Source: Geobacter sp. (GTDB lineage: Bacteria; Desulfobacterota; Desulfuromonadia; Geobacterales; DSM-12255). From it: 41,233 bases of DNA. This document shows, piece by piece, positions 25,862 to 41,233 of the stretch; positions within the stretch are counted from its first letter, which is position 1; the number at the start of each line of letters is the position of its first letter. Both the position numbers and the translations under genes were made by a program. The stretch is taken from NCBI GenBank assembly GCA_009886125.1, contig VFJK01000059.1, positions 1 through 41,233 of the forward strand. Direction: 5' to 3'. The notes below the pieces were generated by a model that saw only the letters and a program-made list of their open reading frames with translations, searched no databases and was not told where the DNA came from.

Positions 25862-26368
25862 CTAAAATGCCTGATCCATCCTGTTGACCACTGCCCGTGC
25901 CATCTTCCCGCAGAGAGCGGAGAGCGCTGCATCGTGGGCGTTGCGCTGCAATGCGAGATCTGCACCGGCAGGATACTCCTGCACGAGGGATTCTGACGAT
26001 TTCCAGATAACTTTCCCGCTCGTATTTTCTGTCAGCTGGATCATCACCGACATGGAAACCCTGTAGAGCATTGCCTTGTCAGCCGAAGAGAACGCTGCCG
26101 TATCTATTGAAAGAGACTCTATCTCTCCGTTCATGACAAGATCGTTGCTTCCGGGCTCGGCATGACTCCCCCGGGAAGCAAGTTCACTTACAAGAGCCAG
26201 CCGCAGTTTCCCCTCTATACTTGACTGGAATGTCCTGTTAGCAAACATGCTGACTGCAATCTTGCGATCCTTTATCTGACCGGTGCCCTTTCCGGTCAGA
26301 GAGTAACCGCATCCGGAGATCAGACCAAGAAAAACTGCCAGCATTAGAAAATGTGAAAGTCTCTTCAC
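25862..26368 (-). CDS. lptE: LPS-assembly lipoprotein LptE
   Basis: Outer-membrane lipoprotein (168 aa) that plugs the LptD barrel and helps insert lipopolysaccharide. The N-terminus is a lipoprotein signal with lipobox LISGC (Cys20), followed by GYSLTGKG, and the core FANRTFQSSIEGKLRLALVSEL resembles the family. Sequence similarity in LptE is low, so context matters: it lies 3 nt after leuS and 22 nt before holA, the classical arrangement. It implies an LPS-bearing Gram-negative cell. Confidence 0.88.
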   Translation of the reverse strand: MKRLSHFLMLAVFLGLISGCGYSLTGKGTGQIKDRKIAVSMFANRTFQSSIEGKLRLALVSELASRGSHAEPGSNDLVMNGEIESLSIDTAAFSSADKAMLYRVSMSVMIQLTENTSGKVIWKSSESLVQEYPAGADLALQRNAHDAALSALCGKMARAVVNRMDQAF

Positions 26369-26371
26369 CTG

Positions 26372-28843
26372 CTACACCACTATGTTGAGAAGCTTGCCAG
26401 GAACATAAATCACCTTTTTCGGGGCCTTCCCTTCCAGGAACGCAGTCACTTTCTCATCAGCAAAGGCAACTGACTTTACCGAATCCTCACCTGCATCGAC
26501 AGGAACTGTGACACGGCCTCTGAGTTTCCCGTTTACCTGGACGACGATAAGGAGCTCTTCATCTGCGGCGGCTTCCTGATCATAGGAGGGCCAGCCTGCC
26601 TTCTCTATCCCCCCTTCATGCCCTGTCTTTTCCCATAACTCTTCAGAAAAGTGAGGGACAAACGGGTAAAGAAGCAGAAGAGTGCTCTCCAGTGCCTCCC
26701 TGAGAAGCGGACCGTTCTGCGGAAGGTTTTTCGGAGAAAAGGAGTGGACGGCATTCACCAGTTCCATAATGGCAGCTATTGCGGTGTTGAAGTGAAAACG
26801 CTCATCAATGTCTGCCGTAACTTTCCTGATGGTCTTGTGAACTACTCTCCTTAACCCCTTTGCTTCATCTGAAAGGCTGTTTACATCTACAGGGGTTGTC
26901 GAACTGATGAACGGCATAGCTTCGGCGACAAGCTTCCAGAGACGGTTAAGAAAACGGAAACTGCCGTCCACACCGGCATCGTTCCAGTCAAGGTCTTTTT
27001 CAGGAGGTGCGGCGAAGAGCGAGAAAAGACGGGCTGTGTCTGCTCCATACCTTTCGATAAGCGCATTCGGGTCGACGACGTTACCCTTTGACTTGCTCAT
27101 CTTGGCGCCATCCTTAATGACCATTCCCTGCGTCAGCAGATTGGTAAACGGTTCGTCGACATTCACATAGCCGAGATCACGAAGGACCTTGGTAAAAAAC
27201 CGTGCATAGAGAAGATGAAGCACCGCATGCTCGATACCGCCGATATACTGGTCAACGGACATCCAGTACTTTACCTTCTCCGTGTCGAGCGGACCGCCGG
27301 TATAATCGGAACAGGAGTAACGAAGGAAGTACCAGGAGGACTGCACAAAAGTATCCATGGTATCGGTTTCACGACGGGCGGGTTTACCGCATTTCGGACA
27401 GTCGACATTGATGAATGTATCGAGCCTGGCCAGCGGGCTACCGCCTTCTCCCGTGAAAGCGACATCTAAGGGGAGGACGACCGGCAGGTCCTTTTCAGGG
27501 ACGGGCAGAGTCCCGCATGAGTCGCAGTAGATGACCGGGATCGGATTCCCCCAGTAGCGCTGGCGGGAAATCCCCCAGTCCCTGAGACGGAAATTGACGG
27601 TCTTTTTACCGCGCCCTTTCCCCTCCAGCCAGTCAGCAATGCGCTCCTTGGCCGCAAGGCTGCTGATATTGTCAAACTGTCCGGAGTTGACCATTGTACC
27701 TGGTTCTGTGTAGGCAGAAATCATACCGGAGGGATCGATCGGTTCACCATCCGGCTGTATGACTACTACAACCGGCAGATCGTATTTTTTCGCAAATTCG
27801 AAGTCGCGCTGGTCATGCGCAGGCACAGCCATGACCGCACCGGTCCCGTAATCAGTGAGAACGAAATTCGCCAGATAAACCGGTATGCGCAGCCCTGTAG
27901 CAGGGTTTATGCAGTAAGATCCGGTGAATACCCCTTCTTTTTCAAAGTCTTCAGCAGTTCGTCTGACCTTTTCAGTACTCTTCACTTTCTGGATGAAAGC
28001 CTCGACCTCGCCTCTCCGCTCAGTTGTTGCAAGAGAAAGTGCCTGCGGATGCTCCGGAGCCAGCGACATGAACGTTGCGCCATAGAGTGTATCCTGCCGT
28101 GTCGTGAAGACTTTTATTGCACCGCTGCCTTTTTCAAGGGGGAAATCTATCTCGCAGCCGAAGCTCTTCCCGATCCAGTTCCGCTGCATGACCAGTACGC
28201 GTTCAGGCCATCCGGGGAGTTTCTCCGTACACTCAAGGAGTTCTTCAGCGTAATCGGTAATCCTGAAAAACCACTGCTCAAGCTCTTTCTGCTTCACATC
28301 GCTGTCGCACCGCCAGCAGGCGCCGTCCTCTACCTGTTCATTTGCCAGGACAGTCTCACAGGATGGGCACCAGTTGACAAAAGAGCTCTTTTTGTAGGCA
28401 AGCCCTTTTTCAAACATTTCCAGGAATATTTTCTGCTCCCAGCGGTAATATGACAGGTCACAGGTAGCAAGTTCTCTGTCCCAGTCGTATGAAAGGCCCA
28501 TTCTCTTGAGCTGACCACGCATGTAGTCGATGTTCTCGGAAGTCCACTTTGCCGGATGGCTCTTGTTCTGGATAGCTGCATTCTCAGCCGGCATGCCGAA
28601 AGCATCCCAACCCATAGGATGAAGGACATTGAAACCACGCATCCTCTTGAATCTTCCGACCACATCACCGATCGAGTAGTTCCTGACGTGCCCCATATGG
28701 ATCCGCCCGGAGGGGTAAGGAAACATCTCCAGCAGGTAGTACTTCTCCCTGGATTGATCCTCAGTAACCTTGAAACTCTTCTCAAGCGCCCATTTCTTCT
28801 GCCATTTAGCCTCGACTGCTCCGGGCGCATATCTCTCTTCCAC
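26372..28843 (-). CDS. leuS: Leucyl-tRNA synthetase
   Basis: Class I aminoacyl-tRNA synthetase charging tRNA-Leu (823 aa). The HIGH motif appears as HMGH (49-52, in [15 protein letters not shown]) and KMSKS as KMSKSKGN near residue 580. A zinc module with CPSC and CWRCD, an editing (CP1) domain with [12 protein letters not shown], and a second CPKC zinc pair are present. The start is GTG 28843 with AGGGGG upstream. It lies 63 nt downstream of the 27-heme cytochrome gene with no clear terminator between, so some read-through from the che operon is possible. Confidence 0.98.
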
Positions 28844-28906: not shown

Positions 28907-31060
28907 TTATTCGAACTCCGGCGGTTTGTGACACCGCTCACAATTGCCGGCATCTCTTGTTGAAAAAGCCATCTGGAAACCGTGACAGGCTCCGCAGGAC
29001 TTGCCGTTGTCCATATCTCTCATGGTCATCGGTTTTCTGTTCACACTGGCGGGGACAATTTTGTAATGGCAGTCATCGCAGCGATAGCCTCTCCCCACAT
29101 GTATCTTGTGGCTGAATTGAACAGGCTCCACGTTCTTTTTTGCAGGGAAATCGTAATTTATCGACTTCAGCACGGGATGACATTTCTGGCAGCTCTCCTT
29201 GACCGTGAAAGCAACTGATCCGTTATGGCAGAGACCGCAAGAAAAGCCTTTCTCCATATCAAGCATAGAGAAACGCCTGTTCCCCTCTTTGGGGACAAAC
29301 GTCTTGTCATGACAATCATTGCATCGATATAAGGCTGTATGTACTTTATGGCTGAAAACCGCGCCCGAATCCCTGAATTTTATCTCTTTCGTCGGATGAC
29401 ACTTGTCACACGAACCCTTGACTGAAAAAGCACTCTTGCCGTCATGACAGGCCCCGCAGGAAGCACCACTCTCCATTTGCTGCATAGTGTGCCGCTTCCT
29501 GTCCTTACCGGTAGGGAATATGCCATAGTGGCACTCACTGCACTTGTACAATCCGGTATGAAACTTATGACTGAACACGGTCGGCCCGGTCTCTTTCACT
29601 TCATATCGGATTTCCTTGGTAGACCTGTGACAGCGGTCGCAATCTCCCTTTACAGAAAATGCCAGGTAACTGTCGTGACAAGCTCCGCAGGAGCGGTCCT
29701 TCTCCATCTCCGCCATGGAATAGCGAGTGTTATTCTTGTCCGGGCTAAAGAATGCATTATGGCAGTCACTACAGCTGTACATCTCGATATGCCGCACGTG
29801 GGGGAATCTGGCATCAGCGGTAAACTGGATCTCTTTCACCGGATGACATTTGCTGCACTCTTTCGCAACAGAGAAGGCTGTCTTGCCATCATGACAGGCA
29901 CCACAGGATTTCCCTTTCTCCATCTGAGCCATTGAATATTTTTTTCTTTGTGCTCCTGTAGTAAAGACTTTGTTGTGGCAATCATCGCATTTATACATAC
30001 CGAGATGGAAGGAGTGGCTGAAATCGACCTTCCCAGCATTCGGGATATCGAAGACTATGGTCTTCGTCGTATTGTGACACCTGTCGCAGCTTCCGGTCAC
30101 ACTGAATGCTATGTTTGCGTCATGGCATGCCCCGCAGGAAAGGTCCTTCTCCATATCCCCCATGGAAAACCTGCGGCTCCCCTTTCCTCCGACAAAAATA
30201 CCGCTGTGGCAATCCACGCAGACATACATCTTCTTAACCGGATCCGTATGTATCTTGTGGCTGAAGGTTGCGGGTGTCTCCTTGAAAACAATATCAGAGG
30301 CCCCTTTGTGGCACCGGATACAGTCGCCCTTTATGGAAAAAGCCTCTTTCCCGTTGTGACATCCGCCACATGACCTGCCACTCTCCATTTCGGTCATGAG
30401 ATAGCGTCTGTTGTTTGCCCCTGCCACAAAGAACTTGTTGTGACAGCTGCCGCACAGATACCCGGCGCCGAGATGGAAGCTATGGCTGAATCTGGCGTCG
30501 GCATCAAAGCTGATATCTTTTACAGAGTGACACTTTGTACACTCCCCCTTAACACTGAAAGCAGACTTTCCATCGTGGCAGCCGCCGCAAGAGGAGCCGC
30601 TCTCCATCAGCTTCATGGTCACATGAGGATTCGTTCCGTCTGCCTTGAAGAGCTTGGTATGACAGTCGGTGCAGGAAAAGACCGTAAGATGGAACTTGTG
30701 GCTGAATACAACCGTGCCGAAATCGGGGATCCTGATCGTGATCTCTTTGGTCAAATGACAAAGTGAGCACTCATTCAGACCGAATGCGCGCACCTTGTTG
30801 TGACACTTCCCGCATGACTTCCCCTTCTCCATTTCAGCCATGGTGACCGAAGGGTTTTTCTCTCCTATCTTGAAGATTGCGTTATGGCAAAGAGTGCAGT
30901 TACTTCCGAGTTTTTTGAGGTGCGGATCATGAGGAAAAGCAATATCGCCGACATCCGCAGTTCTGATGGTTACACTCTTGAAATCTTTTGCCATGAGCGC
31001 AATCGGAATCAGAATCAGTAGCAGAACAGGGAGCAGAAAACGTTTCAATGATTTCTCCAT
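28907..31060 (-). CDS. 27-heme c-type cytochrome of nine c7-type triheme modules
   Basis: A 717-residue exported cytochrome. A signal peptide (1-24, hydrophobic core LLPVLLLILIPIALMA, no lipobox) is followed by nine tandem modules starting at residues 42, 119, 191, 267, 348, 419, 497, 569 and 649. Each has FxHxxH, three CxxCH motifs (27 in all) and a conserved MxxM(E/D)...SCGxCH block before the middle heme, then AF(S/T) and the third motif. This is the architecture of the c7-type triheme nanowire family known from Geobacter. The two conserved distal histidines per module leave the middle heme without a His partner, which points to Met. It begins 13 nt after cheY. Periplasmic or cell-surface electron conduction is likely; no homologue-based name is given. 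Confidence 0.95.
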   Translation of the reverse strand: MEKSLKRFLLPVLLLILIPIALMAKDFKSVTIRTADVGDIAFPHDPHLKKLGSNCTLCHNAIFKIGEKNPSVTMAEMEKGKSCGKCHNKVRAFGLNECSLCHLTKEITIRIPDFGTVVFSHKFHLTVFSCTDCHTKLFKADGTNPHVTMKLMESGSSCGGCHDGKSAFSVKGECTKCHSVKDISFDADARFSHSFHLGAGYLCGSCHNKFFVAGANNRRYLMTEMESGRSCGGCHNGKEAFSIKGDCIRCHKGASDIVFKETPATFSHKIHTDPVKKMYVCVDCHSGIFVGGKGSRRFSMGDMEKDLSCGACHDANIAFSVTGSCDRCHNTTKTIVFDIPNAGKVDFSHSFHLGMYKCDDCHNKVFTTGAQRKKYSMAQMEKGKSCGACHDGKTAFSVAKECSKCHPVKEIQFTADARFPHVRHIEMYSCSDCHNAFFSPDKNNTRYSMAEMEKDRSCGACHDSYLAFSVKGDCDRCHRSTKEIRYEVKETGPTVFSHKFHTGLYKCSECHYGIFPTGKDRKRHTMQQMESGASCGACHDGKSAFSVKGSCDKCHPTKEIKFRDSGAVFSHKVHTALYRCNDCHDKTFVPKEGNRRFSMLDMEKGFSCGLCHNGSVAFTVKESCQKCHPVLKSINYDFPAKKNVEPVQFSHKIHVGRGYRCDDCHYKIVPASVNRKPMTMRDMDNGKSCGACHGFQMAFSTRDAGNCERCHKPPEFE

Positions 31061-31073
31061 GACAGTAATCAGG

Positions 31074-31451
31074 TCAGACGATCTTCAGCAGCTGCTTTGC
31101 GACTTCAAGAATCCTGTTCGGCTGGATCGGCTTGGTGATGTAATCATTAGCTCCAAGAGCAAGCGCTCTCTGGCGGTCTTCCTGGGCACCTTCAGTCGTG
31201 ATGACAACGATTGGTACCCCCTTATGCGTAGCATCCTCACGAACAAGGCTGATGAGCTTGAGTCCATCCATGACCGGCATATTGATATCAGTGAAGATCA
31301 AGTCGAATTTCTCTGCTGAAACTTTTTTCAAGCCGTCAACACCGTCACCTGCCTCGACGATCCTGACCCCCCTGATCCTTTTGAGCGCAAAAGAGATGAG
31401 CTGTCTCATGGTAGGAGAATCTTCAACTATAAGAATATTGAAATCTGCCAT
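31074..31451 (-). CDS. cheY: Chemotaxis response regulator CheY
   Basis: Single receiver domain (125 aa) with intact residues: Glu10/Asp11, phospho-acceptor Asp55 (FTDINMP) and Lys107 (ITKPI). Its MRQLISFALKRIRG helix is typical of CheY proteins that serve a CheA. ATG 31451 is preceded by GGAGG with 9 nt spacing. It ends 13 nt before the 27-heme cytochrome and follows the GAF gene by 36 nt. As a terminal output of the cluster it may act on motility or on another target; nothing in the window shows which. Confidence 0.92.
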   Translation of the reverse strand: MADFNILIVEDSPTMRQLISFALKRIRGVRIVEAGDGVDGLKKVSAEKFDLIFTDINMPVMDGLKLISLVREDATHKGVPIVVITTEGAQEDRQRALALGANDYITKPIQPNRILEVAKQLLKIV

Positions 31452-31487
31452 ATTAAAACCCCTCCAAAGATAGTGTAAGCATGCATG

Positions 31488-32306
31488 CTACTTTGTCAGC
31501 AGATCTATAAACCCCTGAATCGTGGAGAGCCTTCTCTCCGAATCCGAATAGAGTCTGGCTCCGAAAATAGCTGTCGCAGCGTGGCCAGCCAGAAGGGTAA
31601 ACAGTTCATAATCGACCTGTGCGAACTCCTCCTTCTGGATCAAGAGTTTATAGATTGCAAGGACACCAATGACATGCTCCTTTATCTTCAATGGAACACA
31701 TACCATGGGGCTCAGCAGGTCACGACTGTAGGTCTCGATGTTTTCAGCAAAATAGCTCTCACCGCTCTGGAGCGTCTGCCCGATAAGACCGCTTCCAAGC
31801 ATGATGGGCGGTATGTCATCACGATCAAGACCTTCACAGGCTACCGCCCTGAGGTCACCTGTCTTCTCGTCGAGAAGCAGCAGGGCAAACTCTTCGGCAC
31901 CTATCAGGTTAATGACGATCTCCATGATTATCTGCAGGACCTCTTTGAAGTCCAGGGTCGAATGGAGCTGATAACTTGCGATATAAAGATTCGCAAGATT
32001 GTTGTTCTCAGACTCTATCTCGATATACCGGTTGGCAAAATCCTCATTCTCATCTTCCACTTTGCGGATCCGGTCGAGAATATCCTGCTTCTCCTGTTCA
32101 AGCTCCTTGATGCGGTTCAAAAGAGCCTGACTCTGGTCCCCTCCGGATCCACTGAGGGTACCGGCCCCGGAGTTCTCGAGCTCAAGAACCCGATATCTCA
32201 ATCTTTCATTCTCACGCAGCAGGTCATGAGTAAATTCGGCGCCCTTCTTGAACGCCTGCAGGAACTCTTCAGCCTTGCCTCGATATCCCGACTCTTCATC
32301 TATCAT
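31488..32306 (-). CDS. Coiled-coil GAF-domain protein
   Basis: A 272-residue cytoplasmic protein. Residues about 20-110 form a long charged coiled coil with a Ser/Gly-rich break near 46-58, and residues about 115-265 form a GAF domain (TLDFKEVLQIIMEIVINLIGAEEFALLL ... MVCVPLKIKEHVIGVLAIY). No kinase, GGDEF or other output domain is attached. It lies between cheB and cheY with short gaps, so it probably senses a ligand or redox cue for the chemosensory complex or organises it; the ligand is unknown. ATG 32306 has GGAGG 8 nt upstream. Confidence 0.85.
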   Translation of the reverse strand: MIDEESGYRGKAEEFLQAFKKGAEFTHDLLRENERLRYRVLELENSGAGTLSGSGGDQSQALLNRIKELEQEKQDILDRIRKVEDENEDFANRYIEIESENNNLANLYIASYQLHSTLDFKEVLQIIMEIVINLIGAEEFALLLLDEKTGDLRAVACEGLDRDDIPPIMLGSGLIGQTLQSGESYFAENIETYSRDLLSPMVCVPLKIKEHVIGVLAIYKLLIQKEEFAQVDYELFTLLAGHAATAIFGARLYSDSERRLSTIQGFIDLLTK

Positions 32307-32324
32307 ATCTTCTACCTCCCCATA

Positions 32325-33398
32325 TCATTTACTGGAAGTAAATCCACAGAACTCCAATATTTTTGAAGCCATCTGATCCAGATGGGCAACAATATCAACA
32401 ACACCGGTTGCAATTGCTTCACGAGGCATACCAAAGACCACGGATGACTCCTCTGCCTCGGCAAGCACTCCGCCTCCCGCCTCCTTGACGCGTCTGACTC
32501 CCTGACTTCCGTCGTTCCCCATACCGGTCAGTATGACCGCCATGGCGCGGCTTCCGTAAACGCGTGCAACAGAAATCAGCATTGCATTTACAGAAGGCGC
32601 ATACTTATCGTCCTTTGAAGGTATCTTGAGTCTTACGATAACCTGATCTCTCACCTGGACCGCTACCATATTGAATCCGCCCGGGGCGATAAGAACAGTA
32701 TTGGGTCTTACCTGTTCGCCGTCAGAAGCCTCACGCACTTCAAAAGGGAACATCCTGTTCAGTCTCTCAGCAAAAGTCTTGGTAAAACCGGCGGGCATAT
32801 GCTGAGAGATCAGAATGGCGAACGGAAGCACTTCCGGCATCTGTGAAAGAATTTTCTGCAGCGCAGGGGGCCCTCCGGTAGATGACCCGATGGCAACGAC
32901 CTCAAATTTCTGGACCCCTCCACGAGGGAGTCTGGCAGTTTTTCTGACTGGAGGGTTCTCAAGATGAAGCTGCGTATCAGTCCTGTTCTTCAGGCCTTTC
33001 AGGTTGAGGTTCAGAAGAGTTCCGACCTTCAGCTGGAGTTCATCACGTATGTCAAGCAGCTGATCGGAAAGAGGCCGGGAAGGCTTTGCCACAAAATCAA
33101 CCGCTCCCAGTTCCAGAGCCTTGAACACTCTTTCATCAGAGTTTTGTGAACTGACGACTATGACCGGAGTAGGACAGGCAGTCATGATGATTCTGAGGAG
33201 CGTAAAACCGTCCATGCCCGGCATCTCCAGGTCAAGGGTTATCAGGTCCGGGCGCAGATCCATGACTTTCCTCAGTCCTTCCTCACCATTCATGGCATAA
33301 CCGACGACCGTGACCCCGGGGATCTCTTCAAGGAGCCTGATAATCGTCCTGCGGCTGTAAGCTGAATCATCTATGACCAGTACCTTGACACTTTTCAA
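32325..33398 (-). CDS. cheB: Chemoreceptor glutamate methylesterase/deamidase CheB
   Basis: Removes methyl groups from, and deamidates, chemoreceptors for adaptation. The N-terminal receiver has Asp10/Asp11 and phospho-acceptor Asp56 (LDLEMP). After a linker the catalytic domain has Ser173 (GSSTGG), His200 (SQHMPAGFT) and Asp297 (GMGNDGS), the full catalytic triad. Length 357 is normal. The start codon is TTG 33398, overlapping the cheR stop by four bases (TTGA), with GGAG 7 nt upstream. Its presence implies methylated receptors encoded outside the window. Confidence 0.96.
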
Positions 33399-34270
33399 TG
33401 CTGATCTCCATCGTTTTGATGAGGCTTTTCATAGACCATATCGTTCTTGAAGTGCCGTAACTTGAACGCTGTCGTAATGTTCATCAGAGATTCCGAGTGG
33501 CCAAGCAGAAGAAACCCCCCCGGTTGAAGCGTGCTGTAGAAATTCTCTATCACTCTTTTTTTGGCATGCTGATCAAAATAGATAATGACATTGCGGCAGA
33601 AGATTATATCCATTTTACCAAGGAAGAGAAACCTGTTCTGATCATAAAGATTCAGCCGGCTGAAGGTCACCAGCGCACGTATCCTGTCAGCTACCCGGTA
33701 GCCTCCATCCTGTTCATGAAAGTAGCGACTCTTGTAAAGAGGCTCGGTGACCCTGAATGAAGAGTTGCCGTAAACCCCCTTGCGTGCCTGATGAAGAACC
33801 CGTTGGCTTATATCTGTACCGATTATCTCGATCTTCCAGCCGGCAAGCTCTGGTCTTTCAAGAAGAAGTATCGCTATCGTATATGGCTCTTCACCGGTAG
33901 AACAGCCGGCACTCCAGATCCTCAGCGTCCGGTCGGAACCTGCCCCCTTCTTGCGAACAAGTTCAGGGATTATCTCGTCTGTAAATGCCTTCAGCTGAAA
34001 CGACTCCCGAAAAAAATAGGTCTCGTTGGTTGTAAGGAGATCCATAATATCGGAAAGCTCCTGATCCCGGTTGATGTCATATCTCAGATAATAGTAATAC
34101 TCATGAAATGTCGAAAGCCTGTGGTGTGAAAGTCTTGGAGAAAGGCGTCTTTCAAGCAGAAATCTGTTGTCATCGGTAAAATACAGTCCGCTGTAATTAT
34201 AGACGAGATCACGCAGGAGGCTGAACTCGTCGTCACTCATCTTAATGTCAGCGTCCGCAAAAAACTGCAT
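33395..34270 (-). CDS. cheR: Chemoreceptor glutamate methyltransferase CheR
   Basis: SAM-dependent methyltransferase that methylates receptor glutamates (291 aa). The N-terminal helical domain contains [12 protein letters not shown], the SAM site is [16 protein letters not shown], and [13 protein letters not shown] and [12 protein letters not shown] complete the CheR pattern. There is no C-terminal TPR or NWETF-binding extension. Its ATG shares one base with the stop of the HEAT-repeat gene (TGATG) and its end overlaps cheB, so the three are translationally linked. Confidence 0.96.
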
Positions 34271-36093
34271 CAGTACCTTTCTGAAATCAGTGTGAGAAGA
34301 TTTACAGCCACCCTGGCGACCTCTTCATCAGGATCATTGGAAGCCTCCCGGACAGATTCAGCTGCCCTTGCAGGGTCAATCTGCGTCAATGCATTCATCG
34401 CGGCGATTTTAAGCATTCCTGACGAAAAACTCATGAACGGCTTTATGCTGTCAAAAGCCGATTTTTCAGACCGCATCCCAAGACTCTTGATTACCGCGGC
34501 CTGAACTCTCTGAGTCGAGTCTTCGAGAGCAAGCTTGAGATACCCGGACTCATCTATGAACCCGCTCCATCCAAGCGCTGAAGCTGCTGCCAACCTTACA
34601 TCCGCCTCTTCGTCAGCAAGTGACATGAAAAGTATCCCTGCAGTCTCGGGAACCCTCATCTCCCCGAGTGTCGCTACAGCCTCTCTCCTGACAAGAAAAT
34701 CCTCGTCCTTGCTCAGAGACGTCAGGTGGGTGATATCCCTCAATGCACCAAAAAGCCGTACCGCCTGAAGACGGGAGTCCGGATTGTCAGACCCGGAAAG
34801 CTGAATGGCTGAGCCGAAAACGCTCTCCCTTGAGACTGTTGCCAGCTTGACCAGTGCAGCTGCCCCCCTGCGTCTGACCTCCTGATTTTCATCATTTATC
34901 AGCGTGACGAGAACAGGGATGAATTCGGTTAGCCCCGCTTTGCCGACAGCTTCCGCTGACAATGCCCTGACCATCGAAGAAGGGTCATTGACTCCTTCAG
35001 AAATAATATGAGCAGACTCCTGAAGGCGCAACTCTCCGGCCAGATGAACTATGACGCAGCGCTGTACTTCATCTCCTGAACTGAACCGGTCAGATAGAAA
35101 TGGAGCGGCCCCTTTTCCTATTTCGCGAAATGCTTCAAGTGATACCTGCTGGACATTCTCGTCCTCGTAGCCTTTCAGCAGGAAATCAAGAGCTCGCGGG
35201 TCACCCACGATGCCTAGAATCGCAATTGCTGCAGCTCTGACTTTCCGGTCAACGCTCTCGCGCATGGACATCAGATACTCGACCGTTTCGCTCCCGGCCA
35301 GAGGTTTAAGGCCCTGACTGATCTGCATCTTAAAATCCGGAGATGTCGATCTCAACCGTATCATGTCGAGTGCCGTAAGCGCCGCCTCTCTGACATTCCG
35401 TGCCCTGTCGCTCAAACCGGTGATCAGCAGCGTCAGTGAGCCGATATCACCTATAACCCCCAGACATTCAAACAGCGCCTTCTTAAGCAGTGGATCGCCG
35501 GCAAGCGGTGTTATCGAATCCAGCGGAACCGGGCTTCCGATCTTGACGAGAGCTTCCAGGATTGCATAGCGTATGAGCAGGTCATCCCTTGCGAGTATCT
35601 TCAGAAGGGATGGAAGTGAACTGGGATCGCCTATCAGCCCGAGACTCTCGGCAGCTGCAGCAGCAACATTTGAATCACCATCTGAAAGAGCGCCGGTAAG
35701 ATGCGGGATACTTGCTACAGATCCAATCCCGCCCATGATGTCAACTATGAATTTGCGAATTCCTGGATCTTCATTGGCAAGATGCTCCACAAGGTGAGGG
35801 ATCATCTTCTCGCCGACAGCCTGGAGGACCTCGACGACTGAGTTTCGGAGGCCTGCATTCCCCTGGACCGTCAGCAGTTCTATCAACTCTTTTGCAAGCT
35901 CATCCCCTGGAGAGACCGACAGGATAAGATCAACAGCCTCCTTCCGGACCCTCCAGCTCTCGTCACCGAGAGCAGAAACGGCAAGCGGCTTTATCTCGCT
36001 GAACGGAAACCCTGAAAGAGAGGAGACGGCAACTCTTCTCTCCTCTTCATCGGCAGACCTCAACCTGCGTAAAAGGTCATTAAATGCTTCCAC
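34270..36093 (-). CDS. HEAT-repeat scaffold protein in the che operon
   Basis: A 607-residue soluble protein made almost wholly of about 30-residue helical HEAT repeats (PBS-lyase type), for example LAVSALGDESWRVRKEAVDLIL and LLIRYAILEALVKIGS, repeated to the end. No catalytic motif, signal peptide or membrane segment is visible, so it is probably a cytoplasmic protein-binding solenoid. The start is GTG 36093 with AGAGGTG just upstream. It overlaps the zinc-ribbon pseudo-receiver gene by 14 bases and cheR by one, so it is made together with the adaptation enzymes. A scaffold role in this pathway is inference. Confidence 0.88.
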   Translation of the reverse strand: MEAFNDLLRRLRSADEEERRVAVSSLSGFPFSEIKPLAVSALGDESWRVRKEAVDLILSVSPGDELAKELIELLTVQGNAGLRNSVVEVLQAVGEKMIPHLVEHLANEDPGIRKFIVDIMGGIGSVASIPHLTGALSDGDSNVAAAAAESLGLIGDPSSLPSLLKILARDDLLIRYAILEALVKIGSPVPLDSITPLAGDPLLKKALFECLGVIGDIGSLTLLITGLSDRARNVREAALTALDMIRLRSTSPDFKMQISQGLKPLAGSETVEYLMSMRESVDRKVRAAAIAILGIVGDPRALDFLLKGYEDENVQQVSLEAFREIGKGAAPFLSDRFSSGDEVQRCVIVHLAGELRLQESAHIISEGVNDPSSMVRALSAEAVGKAGLTEFIPVLVTLINDENQEVRRRGAAALVKLATVSRESVFGSAIQLSGSDNPDSRLQAVRLFGALRDITHLTSLSKDEDFLVRREAVATLGEMRVPETAGILFMSLADEEADVRLAAASALGWSGFIDESGYLKLALEDSTQRVQAAVIKSLGMRSEKSAFDSIKPFMSFSSGMLKIAAMNALTQIDPARAAESVREASNDPDEEVARVAVNLLTLISERY

Positions 36094-37024
36094 CGGCCAC
36101 CTCTTTGTCCTGGTTGATTCCCATCTCCCGCTTTTTCTGGCTTATCAGTTCTGAAAGTGCCTCTTCAAAAAAATCTACCGGAAAAGATGCTGCTTCGGGT
36201 AAACGGCTTTCAAACAGTGCACGCCCGTCACGTATCTCGATGCCGAGACATTCGTCAATCTTTCCGGTCTGTACCCCTTCTTCAAGTTCAGCCTCCCGGT
36301 AAAGAGATATGTCCGAAACGATACTCCTTGCAAGCTGTCTGGCTGCCTTGTATTTCGCATCGTTCTCCGGTCTGATCTCAGGAGCCTGATTGGCCATAAG
36401 CTCTTTTCTGACCTTTTCCTGATCATTCTCTTCGGTAGGGGTAAAGGACGCCGGAGATGTATCGATCTCATTTTCAGAATCCGGAAGAGTCCCGTTGCCT
36501 GATTGGACCTCACGTGCGTCTGACGCAAGACGGTATATCATCGGAGCCAGCGAATCCGGAATATGATGCTGCTCGATATAATCATCAGCTCCATAGAGAG
36601 ATTGAGGAGAACGTTTATATTTTGTCTTGTCGTAGATCGCCGCAAGCAGGATGATCTTTATGTCGCTTGTCCGCTTGTCATTCCGTATTGCCTCACAGAC
36701 CTGAAATCCATACATCGTGGGAAGGGCTACATTTAGAAGCACCACATCCGGCATGAACTTTAAGGTAAGTGCCAGGGCCTCTTTCCCGTCATGACAGGAG
36801 AAGATATCGAACGGTTCAGGAGCCAGGACTTTCTGTACTGCTGCGCAGAATTCAGCGCTCTCATGCGCTACAAGCACGGTAAGCCTTCCGGACTTCTCAC
36901 TCTTTTCTGTCGAAAGCAGAAAAACCGAAGAGCATCTGCTGCATCTCAACCTGATACCCGCACCACTGACTTTCTGTTCATCGAATTTGAACCTGGTCCT
37001 GCAGGCAGGACAACTGATATACAT
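36080..37024 (-). CDS. Zinc-ribbon protein with degenerate receiver domain
   Basis: A 314-residue protein with an N-terminal MJ0042-type zinc ribbon (Cys5, Cys8, Cys28, Cys31), a receiver-like domain at about 47-170, and an acidic linker followed by a helical C-terminal region of unknown fold (about 215-314). The receiver lacks its chemistry: the phospho-acceptor site is Asn98 (LLNVALP), the acidic pair is Ala53-His54 and the Lys is Gln152. It should therefore act by binding rather than by phosphotransfer. I start at ATG 37024 (AAGGAG 11 nt upstream); the ATG at 37033 lies only 2 nt from that Shine-Dalgarno. It follows cheW by 36 nt and overlaps the HEAT-repeat gene. Confidence 0.83.
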   Translation of the reverse strand: MYISCPACRTRFKFDEQKVSGAGIRLRCSRCSSVFLLSTEKSEKSGRLTVLVAHESAEFCAAVQKVLAPEPFDIFSCHDGKEALALTLKFMPDVVLLNVALPTMYGFQVCEAIRNDKRTSDIKIILLAAIYDKTKYKRSPQSLYGADDYIEQHHIPDSLAPMIYRLASDAREVQSGNGTLPDSENEIDTSPASFTPTEENDQEKVRKELMANQAPEIRPENDAKYKAARQLARSIVSDISLYREAELEEGVQTGKIDECLGIEIRDGRALFESRLPEAASFPVDFFEEALSELISQKKREMGINQDKEVAGGSI

Positions 37025-37060
37025 TCTAAGCATCTCTCCTTCGCAAATGAGAACAGTAAA

Positions 37061-37522
37061 TCAAGTCAGGGAGCCCAGGGCATTCACTTCGTTTGCATTG
37101 AGGAGCCTGTCAATATCAAGCAGCATGACCAGAATATCCCCGTGCAGACATACTCCGAGCAGATGATCGGCGATAAGACCATCAGAGACCGCAGGTGGAG
37201 GTTTTATGTCGCTGACAGGGACAGTAATCACCTCGGTGACATCATCGACAACCAGGCCGATGGTCTGCGCAGAAAGCCGCACGATCAGGAGCCGTGTTGA
37301 TGAACCCGGATCTCTTGCCGGCATATCGAATCGCTTGCGCAGATCTACGACAGGGATGACAGAGCCTCTCAGATTTATGACCCCGTCAATAAAAGAAGGC
37401 GCTTTCGGAAGGTTCGTCAGCCTCTGAGGACGGATAATCTCCTTTATCCTCATGATATCGACAGCATATAGATCATCAATGAGGCGGAAACAGGCGATCT
37501 GTATCTCGGTTACACTGGTCAT
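37061..37522 (-). CDS. cheW: Chemotaxis coupling protein CheW
   Basis: Adaptor linking receptors to CheA (153 aa). The SH3-like CheW fold is recognisable from YAVDIMRIKEIIRP, INLRGSVIPVVDLRKRF and IGLVVDDVTEVI. No extra domain is present. It is the shorter of two CheW-type proteins in the cluster, so the pathway may use two coupling proteins with different partners. It stands 54 nt downstream of a receiver gene and 36 nt upstream of the zinc-ribbon pseudo-receiver. Confidence 0.94.
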   Translation of the reverse strand: MTSVTEIQIACFRLIDDLYAVDIMRIKEIIRPQRLTNLPKAPSFIDGVINLRGSVIPVVDLRKRFDMPARDPGSSTRLLIVRLSAQTIGLVVDDVTEVITVPVSDIKPPPAVSDGLIADHLLGVCLHGDILVMLLDIDRLLNANEVNALGSLT

Positions 37523-37576
37523 TTGCGTCCTCTCGAAAAAAACCTGCCGATATATTCTGGAATCTGCTCCCGGTCT

Positions 37577-37951
37577 CTACCTTTTCTGCAGCAGACCTGT
37601 GATTACATCAATTATTTTCAATGATTTGAAAGGTTTCGTTATGTAAGCGTCAGCACCGACTTCAATCCCTCTGGCCTGGTCAACCGCACTCTTTTTGGCG
37701 GTGAGCATGACTACCGGTATGCCCCTGGTCTCCGGGTTCTCTTTTATCCTGCGGCAGACTTCGAAGCCATCGATTCCCGGCATCATGATATCCAGCAGGA
37801 CAAGATCCGGCTTGTTCTGCTCGATCTCACTCAAAGCTGCAAGACCGTCCTTTACCCCGGTAACTTTATACCCTTTTGAAGCGAGCAGAATGGTTTCGAG
37901 TTTCAAGAGACTCTCTTCATCTTCGACAATGAGTATATGGTTATTTCCCAT
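37577..37951 (-). CDS. Single-domain response regulator in the che operon
   Basis: Stand-alone receiver (124 aa) with intact residues: Glu10/Asp11, phospho-acceptor Asp54 (LLDIMMP) and Lys106 (ITKPF). Its sequence is closer to PilH/DivK-type receivers (GADAYITKPF) than to motor-binding CheY. With the CheY at 31074 and the CheB receiver it gives CheA at least three possible phosphate acceptors here, so it could be a phosphate sink or a separate output. It lies between the two CheW genes with gaps of 72 and 54 nt. Confidence 0.9.
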   Translation of the reverse strand: MGNNHILIVEDEESLLKLETILLASKGYKVTGVKDGLAALSEIEQNKPDLVLLDIMMPGIDGFEVCRRIKENPETRGIPVVMLTAKKSAVDQARGIEVGADAYITKPFKSLKIIDVITGLLQKR

Positions 37952-38023
37952 GAGGACTCTCTTTCGGCAACGACCGTCGCCAATTATTTATTGAAGCTGT
38001 TAGAGTGAGTGCTAAAAACCGTT

Positions 38024-38932
38024 TCAGTTGATGCAGATATCAAGAATCGAATCCAGATTGAGCAGGATCAGCATCCTCTTCTCAAAGCGTCCAAGACCCT
38101 TTACAAAATCGCGATCGATCCCGTCAAGGACAGCCGGGGGATCTTCAATATCCGTGTTATTAATTCTTGCGACCTGCACCACCTCATCCACGAGGATCCC
38201 GCAGTATCCAGAATCCTTCTTGACCACGATGACCCTCTCCCTTCCGGTACTTCCCCCTAAAGTGAGAGCCAGCCTGAGACGCATATCCATGATCGGGATA
38301 ATAACTCCGCGAAGAGATATGACCCCGGAGATGAAGCCCGGCATTCTCGGCACTTCAGTTACATCTCTTGGCTTGATGATCTCCTTGATAGCCATGATAT
38401 TGATAGCATACTCCTCCTTTGCCACCTTGAAGCAGAGATACTCTTCAATGACGACTGAAGAAGAAGGCAGAGTGCTGTAATGCGATGCCTCATCGGAATC
38501 TGAAGAGCACTCCCTGCCTGAAATGATCGTTGCCATAGGATCATACCCCGCCGACTTTATTCTGGGTGAAAAAGGCGGGGCCGTCTGATTCAAGGGAGTG
38601 ATATCGTCCGGCATGGAGGGCGTTTCTTCATTCAGAGTGGTCTTCTGAGGGAAGTATTCCGGCAGACCGGCATCTGAAAAAAGTTCAGGCGTAAATTCGG
38701 TCAAAAGGTCTTCAACTGACTCACCTTCTTCAACCGCCACTCCTATGGCGCAGTTGGCCAATTCGTCTTCTCTGACCTCAGCGGCAAGGGTCTCCGGCTC
38801 TTCACTCTCAGTCTCGAAATCATACTGCTGATCCTCAAAGAGCTCTCCGGCGATCTCAGGCCGCTCAAATCCAACGATTGGATCGCCCTTTTTCTTGGAT
38901 TCGGATTTTTTACGTATCTCGGCTAGGTTCAT
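38024..38932 (-). CDS. CheW-domain protein with long acidic N-terminal extension
   Basis: A 302-residue protein whose last 140 residues are a CheW domain (EEYLCFKVAKEEYAINIMAI, ISLRGVIIPIMDMRLRL, CGILVDEVVQVARI). The first 160 residues are low in hydrophobic content, rich in Glu, Asp, Pro and Ser, and probably disordered. The CheW domain is complete, so it should dock on CheA and receptor tips; the tail may bind another protein of the cluster. It lies 16 nt after the AAA+ ATPase gene. Confidence 0.9.
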   Translation of the reverse strand: MNLAEIRKKSESKKKGDPIVGFERPEIAGELFEDQQYDFETESEEPETLAAEVREDELANCAIGVAVEEGESVEDLLTEFTPELFSDAGLPEYFPQKTTLNEETPSMPDDITPLNQTAPPFSPRIKSAGYDPMATIISGRECSSDSDEASHYSTLPSSSVVIEEYLCFKVAKEEYAINIMAIKEIIKPRDVTEVPRMPGFISGVISLRGVIIPIMDMRLRLALTLGGSTGRERVIVVKKDSGYCGILVDEVVQVARINNTDIEDPPAVLDGIDRDFVKGLGRFEKRMLILLNLDSILDICIN

Positions 38933-38948
38933 GGCTTTCCAGTCCTGA

Positions 38949-39749
38949 TCAGATTAATAGTTCTGAGGCAACTGCTTCAACAATGGAAGCATCGATCAGT
39001 GAAGCATCACTTCCATACCCCTCAAGGATCGCATTGGTCGCAATCAGGTTTATGCGCCGGGGGACACCTTCAGAAAGCTCGTATATTTTCTGAACGGCAT
39101 CAGGCGAAAAGAGCCCCGCCCCGCCACCTGCTGTTTCAAGACGGAAATCAAGATAGTCCTGAACATCATCCATCTCAAGGGGCAGAAGGTGAAACTGCAT
39201 GGTAATACGCTGCCTCAGCGGCTCGAAAACCGGATTTGAAAGCATGGTACGCAGTTCAGGCTGTCCCATGAGTATCACCGTTAAAAGGTTTCTATCATCA
39301 AGCTGATAATTAGTCAGGAGGCGTATCTCGTCAAATATCTCCCTGTCAGGGATAAGCTGTGCTTCATCGACGATCAGTACCGGAGAAACACCTTCATTAT
39401 GCAGTATATACAGGGCATCGGCAATCTGATTAAGCAGTGACTCCTTGTCAGCAGCAGGTGAAACAGGTGAAAGTGAACGGGCAATGCTTCGCAGAAATTC
39501 AACTGCGGAGAGGCGTGGATTTACGATAAAGCAGAATCGGTACTCATCTCCGAGAGAGTCCATGAGAGCCCTGGAAAGAGTCGTCTTGCCACAGCCGATC
39601 TCGCCGGTGAGCAGTGCGATCTCCCGCTCCTCGGCAACGTAGTGAAGCCTTGCCAGCGCCTCCCGATGTCCCCTGCTTAAATAGAGGAACCTGGGGTCGG
39701 GTGTTTTGCTGAAAGGGCGCTCCTTCATGCAGTAGAAATCATTATACAT
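38949..39749 (-). CDS. ExeA/GspA-like AAA+ ATPase in the che operon
   Basis: A 266-residue AAA+ ATPase starting MYNDFYCMKERPFSKTPDPRFLYLS, the entry sequence of the ExeA/GspA/MshM family. Walker A is GEIGCGKT (49-56), Walker B is LIVDEAQL (Asp128, Glu129), and the sensor regions ILMGQPEL and GVPRRINLI are present. The C-terminal peptidoglycan-binding part and membrane anchor of full ExeA are absent, so only the cytoplasmic motor is present. ExeA relatives help assemble secretion or pilus machines; here the gene lies 5 nt after cheA and 16 nt before the CheW-domain gene, which suggests a role in placing or remodelling the chemosensory complex. That role is inference. Confidence 0.87.
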   Translation of the reverse strand: MYNDFYCMKERPFSKTPDPRFLYLSRGHREALARLHYVAEEREIALLTGEIGCGKTTLSRALMDSLGDEYRFCFIVNPRLSAVEFLRSIARSLSPVSPAADKESLLNQIADALYILHNEGVSPVLIVDEAQLIPDREIFDEIRLLTNYQLDDRNLLTVILMGQPELRTMLSNPVFEPLRQRITMQFHLLPLEMDDVQDYLDFRLETAGGGAGLFSPDAVQKIYELSEGVPRRINLIATNAILEGYGSDASLIDASIVEAVASELLI

Positions 39750-39754
39750 GGCTG

Positions 39755-41233
39755 TCAGACCTGACCTCCACCCTTGGTAACTTCATGGATTATCCCGCTG
39801 ACATCAAGAACCAGTATTGTCCGCTGATCACCCAGATCTGCTGCGCCGGAAATCCCTTTCAACCCTTCAAAAATGGAACCAAGGGTCTTGATGACAATAT
39901 CCTGCTGCCCGAGAAGATCGTCTACCACAAGACCGAGTCTTTTCTCGGCAACGCCCACTACGACGACAAACACGCTGTCAGATTCGATATGCTTCGCATC
40001 CAGATGGAAAAAACTGTCCAGCCTCAGAAGTGGAAGGGTGCTCTCCCGGAGTTGCATCACCTCTTTCCGTTCAACCGTAAGGATGTCTTTTTTCTCAAGC
40101 ATCAATGATTCAAGCACTGATGTTATCGGCAGAGCGTAATAGCGATCGGCGGAAGCGATAATGAGCGCTTTGATAATAGCCAGGGTTATCGGCAGAGTTA
40201 TGGTCATCCTGCTGCCATGGCCCATTGTGCTCTCGACATCTACCATCCCGCTGACCGCAGAAATGTTATTTTTAACCACATCCATCCCGACACCGCGACC
40301 GGAGACCTCGGTGACCGTCTCACTTGTAGAGAATCCGGGGAGGAAAATAAGTTCAATCGCTTCACGCTCTGTCAAGATATCAGACGCAGAGATGAGTCCC
40401 TTTTCAATCGCCTTTTTCTTGACCTTGTCAATATTTATACCCCTGCCGTCATCCTCAACCTCGATAACGACGTGATTACCCTTCTGATATGAGGAGAGAC
40501 TGATGAGACCACGTTCCTCTTTCCCTGCCGCACGCCGCTCTTCAGGCGGCTCAATCCCGTGGTCTATCGCATTCCGGATTATGTGCATCAACGGATCTGC
40601 AATATCCTCCATGATAAGTTTGTCGAGTTCAGTATCTGCACCGAATGTTTTCAGTTCGACCTTTTTCCCCTGCTCTCTGGATATTTTACGAACGATCCGG
40701 CCCATTTTCTCATAAAGTTGGCCTACGGGGATCATCCTGATCTCCATGACCCCTTTCTGAAGTTCGTTCAGCTTTCGTTCGAGCCCCTTGGCAGCCTTGA
40801 CAAGTTCAGAAAAAACCGTCGAGTACCCCTCTTTCCGCATCTTTTCAGAGATATCGTTTATCGTAGAGTGAGACAGGACGAGTTCTCCGACGATATTCAT
40901 CAGCTCATCAAGCTTTCCTATGTCGACCCGTACCGTCCGGCTCATGCTCTTTGCTGTCATCGCATTTTCAGGAGGCACAGTTAACACAGTAGCTGCCTCG
41001 ATTTCCGATTGGACAGCCGCGTCAGACGCAGAGATACCCTGACTTGGAACGTGCTTGCCGCTTAAGACCCGTACGGTTGCATTTGAATCAGCAACAAGAG
41101 CGGCAATCTCGTCGACCCCTTTGGCAGAAGCGTACAGTATTTCGAAATCGATCGAAGCCTCGATGTTCGACCCGACACTCGGGAGCGTGCTGATCACTTC
41201 TCCTGAGCGCTTGAGCGCCTCGGTCAGTTCAGC
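39755..41233 (-). CDS. cheA: Chemotaxis histidine kinase CheA (N-terminal part outside window)
   Basis: The central kinase of the cluster. The frame is open to the window edge (codons before the GTG at 41197 read AELTEALKRSGE), so the HPt domain with the phosphorylated His lies upstream and is not seen. Visible parts are the end of a P2-like region, the dimerisation domain (SRTVRVDIGKLDELMNIVGELVLS), the ATPase domain with N box (MHIIRNAIDHGIE), G1 (EVEDDGRGI), F box (FLPGFST) and G2 (GRGVGMDVV), and the C-terminal CheW-like domain. All kinase motifs look intact. The AAA+ gene begins 5 nt downstream. Confidence 0.96.
   Translation of the reverse strand, partial: AELTEALKRSGEVISTLPSVGSNIEASIDFEILYASAKGVDEIAALVADSNATVRVLSGKHVPSQGISASDAAVQSEIEAATVLTVPPENAMTAKSMSRTVRVDIGKLDELMNIVGELVLSHSTINDISEKMRKEGYSTVFSELVKAAKGLERKLNELQKGVMEIRMIPVGQLYEKMGRIVRKISREQGKKVELKTFGADTELDKLIMEDIADPLMHIIRNAIDHGIEPPEERRAAGKEERGLISLSSYQKGNHVVIEVEDDGRGINIDKVKKKAIEKGLISASDILTEREAIELIFLPGFSTSETVTEVSGRGVGMDVVKNNISAVSGMVDVESTMGHGSRMTITLPITLAIIKALIIASADRYYALPITSVLESLMLEKKDILTVERKEVMQLRESTLPLLRLDSFFHLDAKHIESDSVFVVVVGVAEKRLGLVVDDLLGQQDIVIKTLGSIFEGLKGISGAADLGDQRTILVLDVSGIIHEVTKGGGQV

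Follow-up and report, generated by a model that had tools for sequence, protein, structure and literature searches.

A 27-heme c7-type nanowire cytochrome of Geobacter with nine modules, each predicted to hold one His/Met heme

The window analysed here is a stretch of 41,233 nucleotides from a Geobacter sp. contig. On its reverse strand, an open reading frame at positions 28907-31060 starts with ATG and encodes a product of 717 aa, in which a motif count on the translation gives 27 CxxCH and 54 cysteines, every one of them within a CxxCH. Nine stretches of the product match the NCBIfam model TIGR04257 nanowire_3heme (720 bits against a cut-off of 40), and nine match Pfam Cytochrome_C7. The mature part is about 693 aa long (77.0 kDa without hemes), and its 25.7 residues per heme are close to the 26 quoted for GSU1996 (PMC9129911). 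Judged by these motifs and domain matches, the gene is a 27-heme c7-type nanowire cytochrome, a kind previously described in Geobacter (GSU2210/GSU1996). It is preceded by a chemosensory cluster and followed by leuS and lptE, and the features of the locus, all on the reverse strand, are as follows:

31074..41197 (-), upstream chemosensory cluster: CheA-like, ATPase, CheW, response regulator, CheW, zinc-ribbon/response regulator, HEAT, CheR, CheB, GAF, response regulator
28907..31060 (-), 27-heme c7-type nanowire cytochrome gene (open reading frame, TIGR04257, Pfam Cytochrome_C7)
30989..31060 (-), probable signal peptide, residues 1-24, for export to the periplasm (by eye: KR near the start, a hydrophobic run, an ALMA-KD end)
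30752..30979 (-), module 1, predicted axial Met74 (motif positions)
30524..30748 (-), module 2, predicted axial Met149, extra His146 (motif positions)
30305..30532 (-), module 3, predicted axial Met222, preceded by a short 14-aa linker
30071..30307 (-), module 4, predicted axial Met300, preceded by a short 16-aa linker
29840..30064 (-), module 5, predicted axial Met377, modelled with AlphaFold2
29624..29848 (-), module 6, predicted axial Met449, preceded by a short 14-aa linker
29393..29617 (-), module 7, predicted axial Met526, extra His524
29174..29398 (-), module 8, predicted axial Met599, preceded by a short 15-aa linker
28925..29158 (-), module 9, predicted axial Met680
25862..28843 (-), downstream neighbours: leuS, then lptE (Pfam)

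All nine modules contain three CxxCH and one HxxH, the combination that marks membership of the c7-type nanowire cytochromes. The HxxH motifs begin at residues 44, 121, 193, 268, 349, 421, 498, 571 and 651, and an MxxM motif begins at residues 74, 149, 222, 300, 377, 449, 526, 599 and 680. Counted from the first Cys of the middle CxxCH, the first Met lies at -9 and the second at -6 in 9/9 modules. A sequence-only reading of this DNA had described nine such modules, with an MxxM before every middle CxxCH and no exception, and the motifs are found exactly where it placed them. Beyond the HxxH pairs, the non-proximal His residues are His146 (module 2) and His524 (module 7), which gives a total of 20 for 27 hemes in the 717-aa protein. 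When the nine 23-residue inter-heme segments are shuffled, the probability of obtaining Met at both positions in all nine is about 7e-22, a figure that measures conservation rather than independent events, as the modules are homologous.

We next consider how far the MxxM is kept in the best 80 of 97 relatives plus the window protein (81 proteins, hereafter the 81-protein set). The motif is present in 419/419 three-heme modules of this set, at exactly -9/-6 in 415 and with an insertion of 1-2 residues in the remaining four; a further 20 anchors were left out because they lacked three CxxCH, 18 having none at all and two being interrupted by X. All six seeds used to scan the genomes were taken from sequence surrounding the MxxM, so at least one Met-bearing module per locus is expected nearly by construction. 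This bias does not touch three further proteins (L088-L090), which were found by whole-protein similarity rather than with a Met-containing seed, and their modules also have the MxxM in 31 of 31 cases. With these added (the 84-protein set), the motif is kept in 450/450 modules, and both Met residues thus seem to define the family. His residues other than the HxxH and proximal ones are absent from 289 of the 450 modules of the 84-protein set and present in 161, frequently at an offset of -12 or -11 relative to the middle CxxCH.

The nearest PDB matches of the window protein are the GSU1996 entries 3ov0, 3oue, 3ouq and 1rwj, and among the 5 + 28 matches listed, no chain of the nanowire kind is longer than the 318 residues of 3ov0. 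An AlphaFold2 model of module 5, the one of the nine modules that was modelled singly, was built from an alignment of 114 modules (9 from the window and 105 of 410 from other loci) and has a pLDDT of 94. It superposes on GSU1996 domain C (3ov0) with Z 12.3 and 1.5 A over 75 residues at 57% identity, and it reaches a TM of 0.90 to 1rwj and approximately 0.6 to PpcA-type cytochromes (Z about 5). The module examined is thus predicted to have the c7-type domain fold. A full-length AlphaFold2 model from an 18-sequence alignment gave a mean pLDDT of 49 and a pTM of 0.27 and was set aside.

The comparison with GSU1996 bears on which Met would serve as a ligand. In print, GSU1996 has one His/Met heme in each domain, and Met209 and Met287 were identified by NMR as the axial methionines of domains C and D (PMC10138318), in line with what the sequence-only reading had stated of Geobacter dodecaheme c7 domains. 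Because residues 1-75 of the module 5 model align, 75 on 75, with GSU1996 165-239, model Met45, the first Met of the MxxM, corresponds to Met209, and Met287 stands at the equivalent place in domain D when counted along the 3ov0 chain. The residue equivalent to Met209/Met287 is the first Met of the MxxM in 9/9 window modules, and both model Met45 and Met48, the two Met residues of the motif, are invariant in the 114 aligned modules. By this homology, the axial ligands should be Met74, 149, 222, 300, 377, 449, 526, 599 and 680, and each module very probably contains one His/Met heme, for a total of 9 His/Met and 18 bis-His hemes, as the sequence-only reading had also proposed. The extra His found in 161/450 modules, here His146 and His524, could compete with the Met in those modules.

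The heme that receives the Met can be assigned by comparison with PpcA. PpcA-type cytochromes c7 resemble the window modules in their HxxH, three CxxCH and, at lower similarity, overall fold, and differ in a third distal ligand, His47, at -4 from the middle CxxCH; all three of their hemes are bis-His (PMC10138318). At this position, all nine modules of the window protein carry K, S or N and none a His (0/9), and a His occurs there in 3/419 modules of the 81-protein set. In PpcA, His17, His20 and His47 ligate hemes I, III and IV, respectively (PMC11787507); of the two lysines on either side of His47, Lys43 is placed near heme IV and Lys52 either there or between hemes III and IV (PMC4143306). 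When the module profile is set against a PpcA chain, the window HxxH matches His17/His20. Since the HxxH would thus take hemes I and III, and heme IV is served in PpcA by a residue of the loop preceding the middle CxxCH, the Met-bound heme should be the last (IV) of each module rather than the middle one. The same is reportedly stated for GSU1996 in the abstract of Pokkuluri et al. 2011, in which the last heme of the c7-type domains is said to be His-Met.

Two other ligation schemes can be weighed against this assignment. The sequence-only reading had taken the MxxM as the ligand source, its first Met being the equivalent of the NMR-identified Met209/Met287 (PMC10138318), but had directed it to the middle heme (III), which would leave the HxxH to serve I and IV. 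What speaks for that choice is the location of the Met pair, at -9 and -6 relative to the middle CxxCH; given that the HxxH aligns with His17/His20, that His20 goes to heme III and the loop ligand His47 to heme IV in PpcA (PMC11787507), we give it hardly any credence. A scheme that makes an exception of module 2, and perhaps of module 7, is very improbable. Here, His146 would be the distal ligand or would swap with the Met according to redox state, leaving eight rather than nine permanent His/Met hemes. A His at -12, three residues before Met149, is indeed found in module 2 of 17/18 nine-module proteins of the 81-protein set, and it is common in the 12-heme relatives (28/54 first modules among the best 80 of 97 relatives). 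However, Met149 is invariant in all 18 of these nine-module proteins, and the His at -12 occurs beside the Met and never in its place, the MxxM being kept throughout the 84-protein set. His146 could serve as an alternative ligand, or else as a partner in a hydrogen bond.

The number of modules varies among the relatives. As parsed, the 81-protein set includes 54 proteins with four modules, 18 with nine, four with five, three with three and two with six. Nine modules as a family-wide rule is ruled out by relatives with 3 (L087), 4, 5 (L028-L030), 6 (L026), 7 and 12 modules. Three of the shorter proteins (L023, L024 and L031) are found at the same chromosomal site as the nine-module loci, and their linkers (19-14-19-15-20, 18-14-16-19 and 18-14, respectively) repeat the end or start of the nine-module pattern; because of this shared site and pattern, we read them as cut or broken nine-module genes. 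In a further locus, L067, one module is broken by X.

Within the 18 intact nine-module proteins of the 81-protein set, a module finds its best match in another protein at its own index in 2216 of 2754 comparisons, and by this measure of sequence similarity the modules of all 18 are positional orthologues. The linkers into modules 2-9 of these proteins are 18, 14, 16, 19-20, 14, 19, 15 and 20-22 aa long, and those into modules 2, 3, 4, 6, 7 and 8 are identical in length in 18/18. Short linkers of 14-16 aa precede modules 3, 4, 6 and 8 in every one of the 18, whereas the 54 four-module proteins, which are of GSU1996 size, have linkers of 18-23 aa throughout, with 0/162 in the 14-16 aa range (best 80 of 97 relatives). 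The two 12-module proteins (L088 and L089) each have a single linker of 15 aa.

A full-length match to the cytochrome is present in 35/117 genomes of the order, including the window's own and one with an internal stop (G025), and 82/117 are without one; in two further genomes (G104 and G110), the gene is split. A class-wide search of 146 genomes (E <= 1e-100) gave a match in 26, three of them outside the order. These three are L088 (3553-6468, reverse strand) and L089 (3732-6626, forward strand), from two genomes of another family of the class, each with 12 modules, 36 hemes, 12 HxxH and 12 MxxM, and L090 (2237-3988, reverse strand), from yet another family, with seven modules, 21 hemes and the same motifs. 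In the window's own genome, further similar stretches occur on contigs C53, C8 and C125, in open frames of 349, 257 and 91 aa.

The genomic place of the nine-module gene is fixed in the loci examined. In 17/17 intact nine-module loci besides the window (best 80 of 97 relatives), relatives of CheB, CheR and HEAT lie upstream of the cytochrome and leuS and lptE lie downstream. No leuS match was found beside the four-module loci (best 80 of 97 relatives) within the fetched flanks, none of which exceeds 6 kb and many of which are shorter. The window's chemosensory cluster, from the CheA-like gene to the last response regulator, is on the same strand as the cytochrome gene and ends 13 bp from it. 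Within the cluster, the ATPase gene at 38949-39749 resembles the XrtA/PEP-CTERM-associated ATPase, with 225 bits, below the cut-off of 324.5. The main text of a paper on chemotaxis genes (PMC2577667) contains no mention of cytochrome, HEAT, leucyl, GSU2210 or GSU2212. In one locus of a genome of genus g14 (L091 in G027), the cluster adjoins leuS with no cytochrome between them, and a full-length cytochrome match is found in 0/19 genomes of that genus. The cytochrome gene can therefore be gained or lost separately. The idea that the chemosensory cluster needs the cytochrome is weakened by this locus, which has the same neighbours without it.

A 27-heme cytochrome of this kind has been described. 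GSU2210 of Geobacter sulfurreducens has 27 hemes and is named together with the 12-heme GSU0592 and GSU1996 in the periplasmic nanowire class (PMC10138318), and its row in a SNP-count table gives the location as 'Unknown' (PMC13194489); Gmet_0558 and Gmet_0575 are 27-heme proteins of G. metallireducens (PMC10989804), to which we draw no link. Likened by published heme count rather than by sequence, the window protein is very probably the counterpart of GSU2210; the nine modules and 27 hemes of the GSU2210 group are found in it and in the 17/17 intact relatives beside leuS (best 80 of 97 relatives). With GSU1996, it has in common the triheme module, the fold and the position of the axial Met, and it differs in having nine modules rather than four. 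As the 27 hemes of GSU2210 and the His-Met heme in each GSU1996 domain are already in print, the window protein is an unremarkable representative of an established kind, apart from one architectural peculiarity that can be put to the test.

The motifs and domain matches, their conservation and the modelled fold of a single bead, with ligands assigned by homology to GSU1996 and PpcA, make it very likely in our view that the gene encodes a 27-heme c7-type nanowire cytochrome, presumably periplasmic and the GSU2210 counterpart by heme count. Its nine triheme beads would form a head-to-tail string. In each bead, hemes I and III would be bis-His, with the HxxH pair on their distal sides, and heme IV, the last, would be His/Met, its distal ligand being the first Met of the MxxM. 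His/Met hemes tend to have a higher potential, and a probably higher-potential heme would thus recur once per bead, at the bead's end. We infer from its class that the 27 hemes, lined up at close spacing, would hold electrons and conduct them through the periplasm, a storage and transfer role that has been proposed for GSU1996-type nanowire cytochromes (PMC10138318). The sequence-only reading suggested a wire-like protein that could be well over 10 nm long; a length above 10 nm is an estimate that gains support by homology from the 12 nm given for the 12-heme GSU1996 in the title of the 2011 paper.

Other roles can be proposed from the neighbourhood and from the architecture. The conserved company of CheB, CheR, HEAT and leuS, together with the 13 bp gap to a response-regulator gene on the same strand, would fit a cytochrome that provides a redox input to the adjoining chemosensory cluster upstream instead of taking part in respiration. 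This is very improbable in view of G027, the one examined locus in which cluster and leuS stand together without the cytochrome, and of the difference in distribution, with a close CheR relative (E <= 1e-90) in 109/117 genomes versus a full-length cytochrome in 35/117; moreover, chemosensory proteins are generally cytoplasmic, whereas the cytochrome is expected to be exported. A more specific version of the nanowire role, which we regard as doubtful, is a fixed-length, unevenly jointed wire. In this proposal, the short linkers would fuse the modules into the blocks 1, 2-3-4, 5-6, 7-8 and 9, with looser joints between them; the full length would equal the width of the periplasm, allowing a single molecule to bridge the inner and outer membranes, and the His/Met heme ending each module would act as a potential step. 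The conserved module number and eight linkers would then be explained by the importance of total length and joint geometry, and a review puts at approximately 27 the number of hemes required to span a periplasm some 200 A wide (PMC7096707). Counting against a bridging wire are the relatives with 21 and 36 hemes from other families, the broad occurrence of 12-heme relatives and the absence of the gene from 82/117 genomes.

What is new here is the set of positionally orthologous modules, near-fixed linkers and fixed genomic place of the 27-heme proteins. For a 27-heme c7-type nanowire of the predicted architecture, the ratio of 9 His/Met to 18 bis-His hemes becomes readable from sequence, with the underlying motif kept in every relative examined, and the corrected heme assignment moves the sites of probably higher potential to other places along the wire. 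Short linkers and a constant number of modules offer a handle on whether such a protein may be a ruler spanning the periplasm or a bigger electron reservoir.
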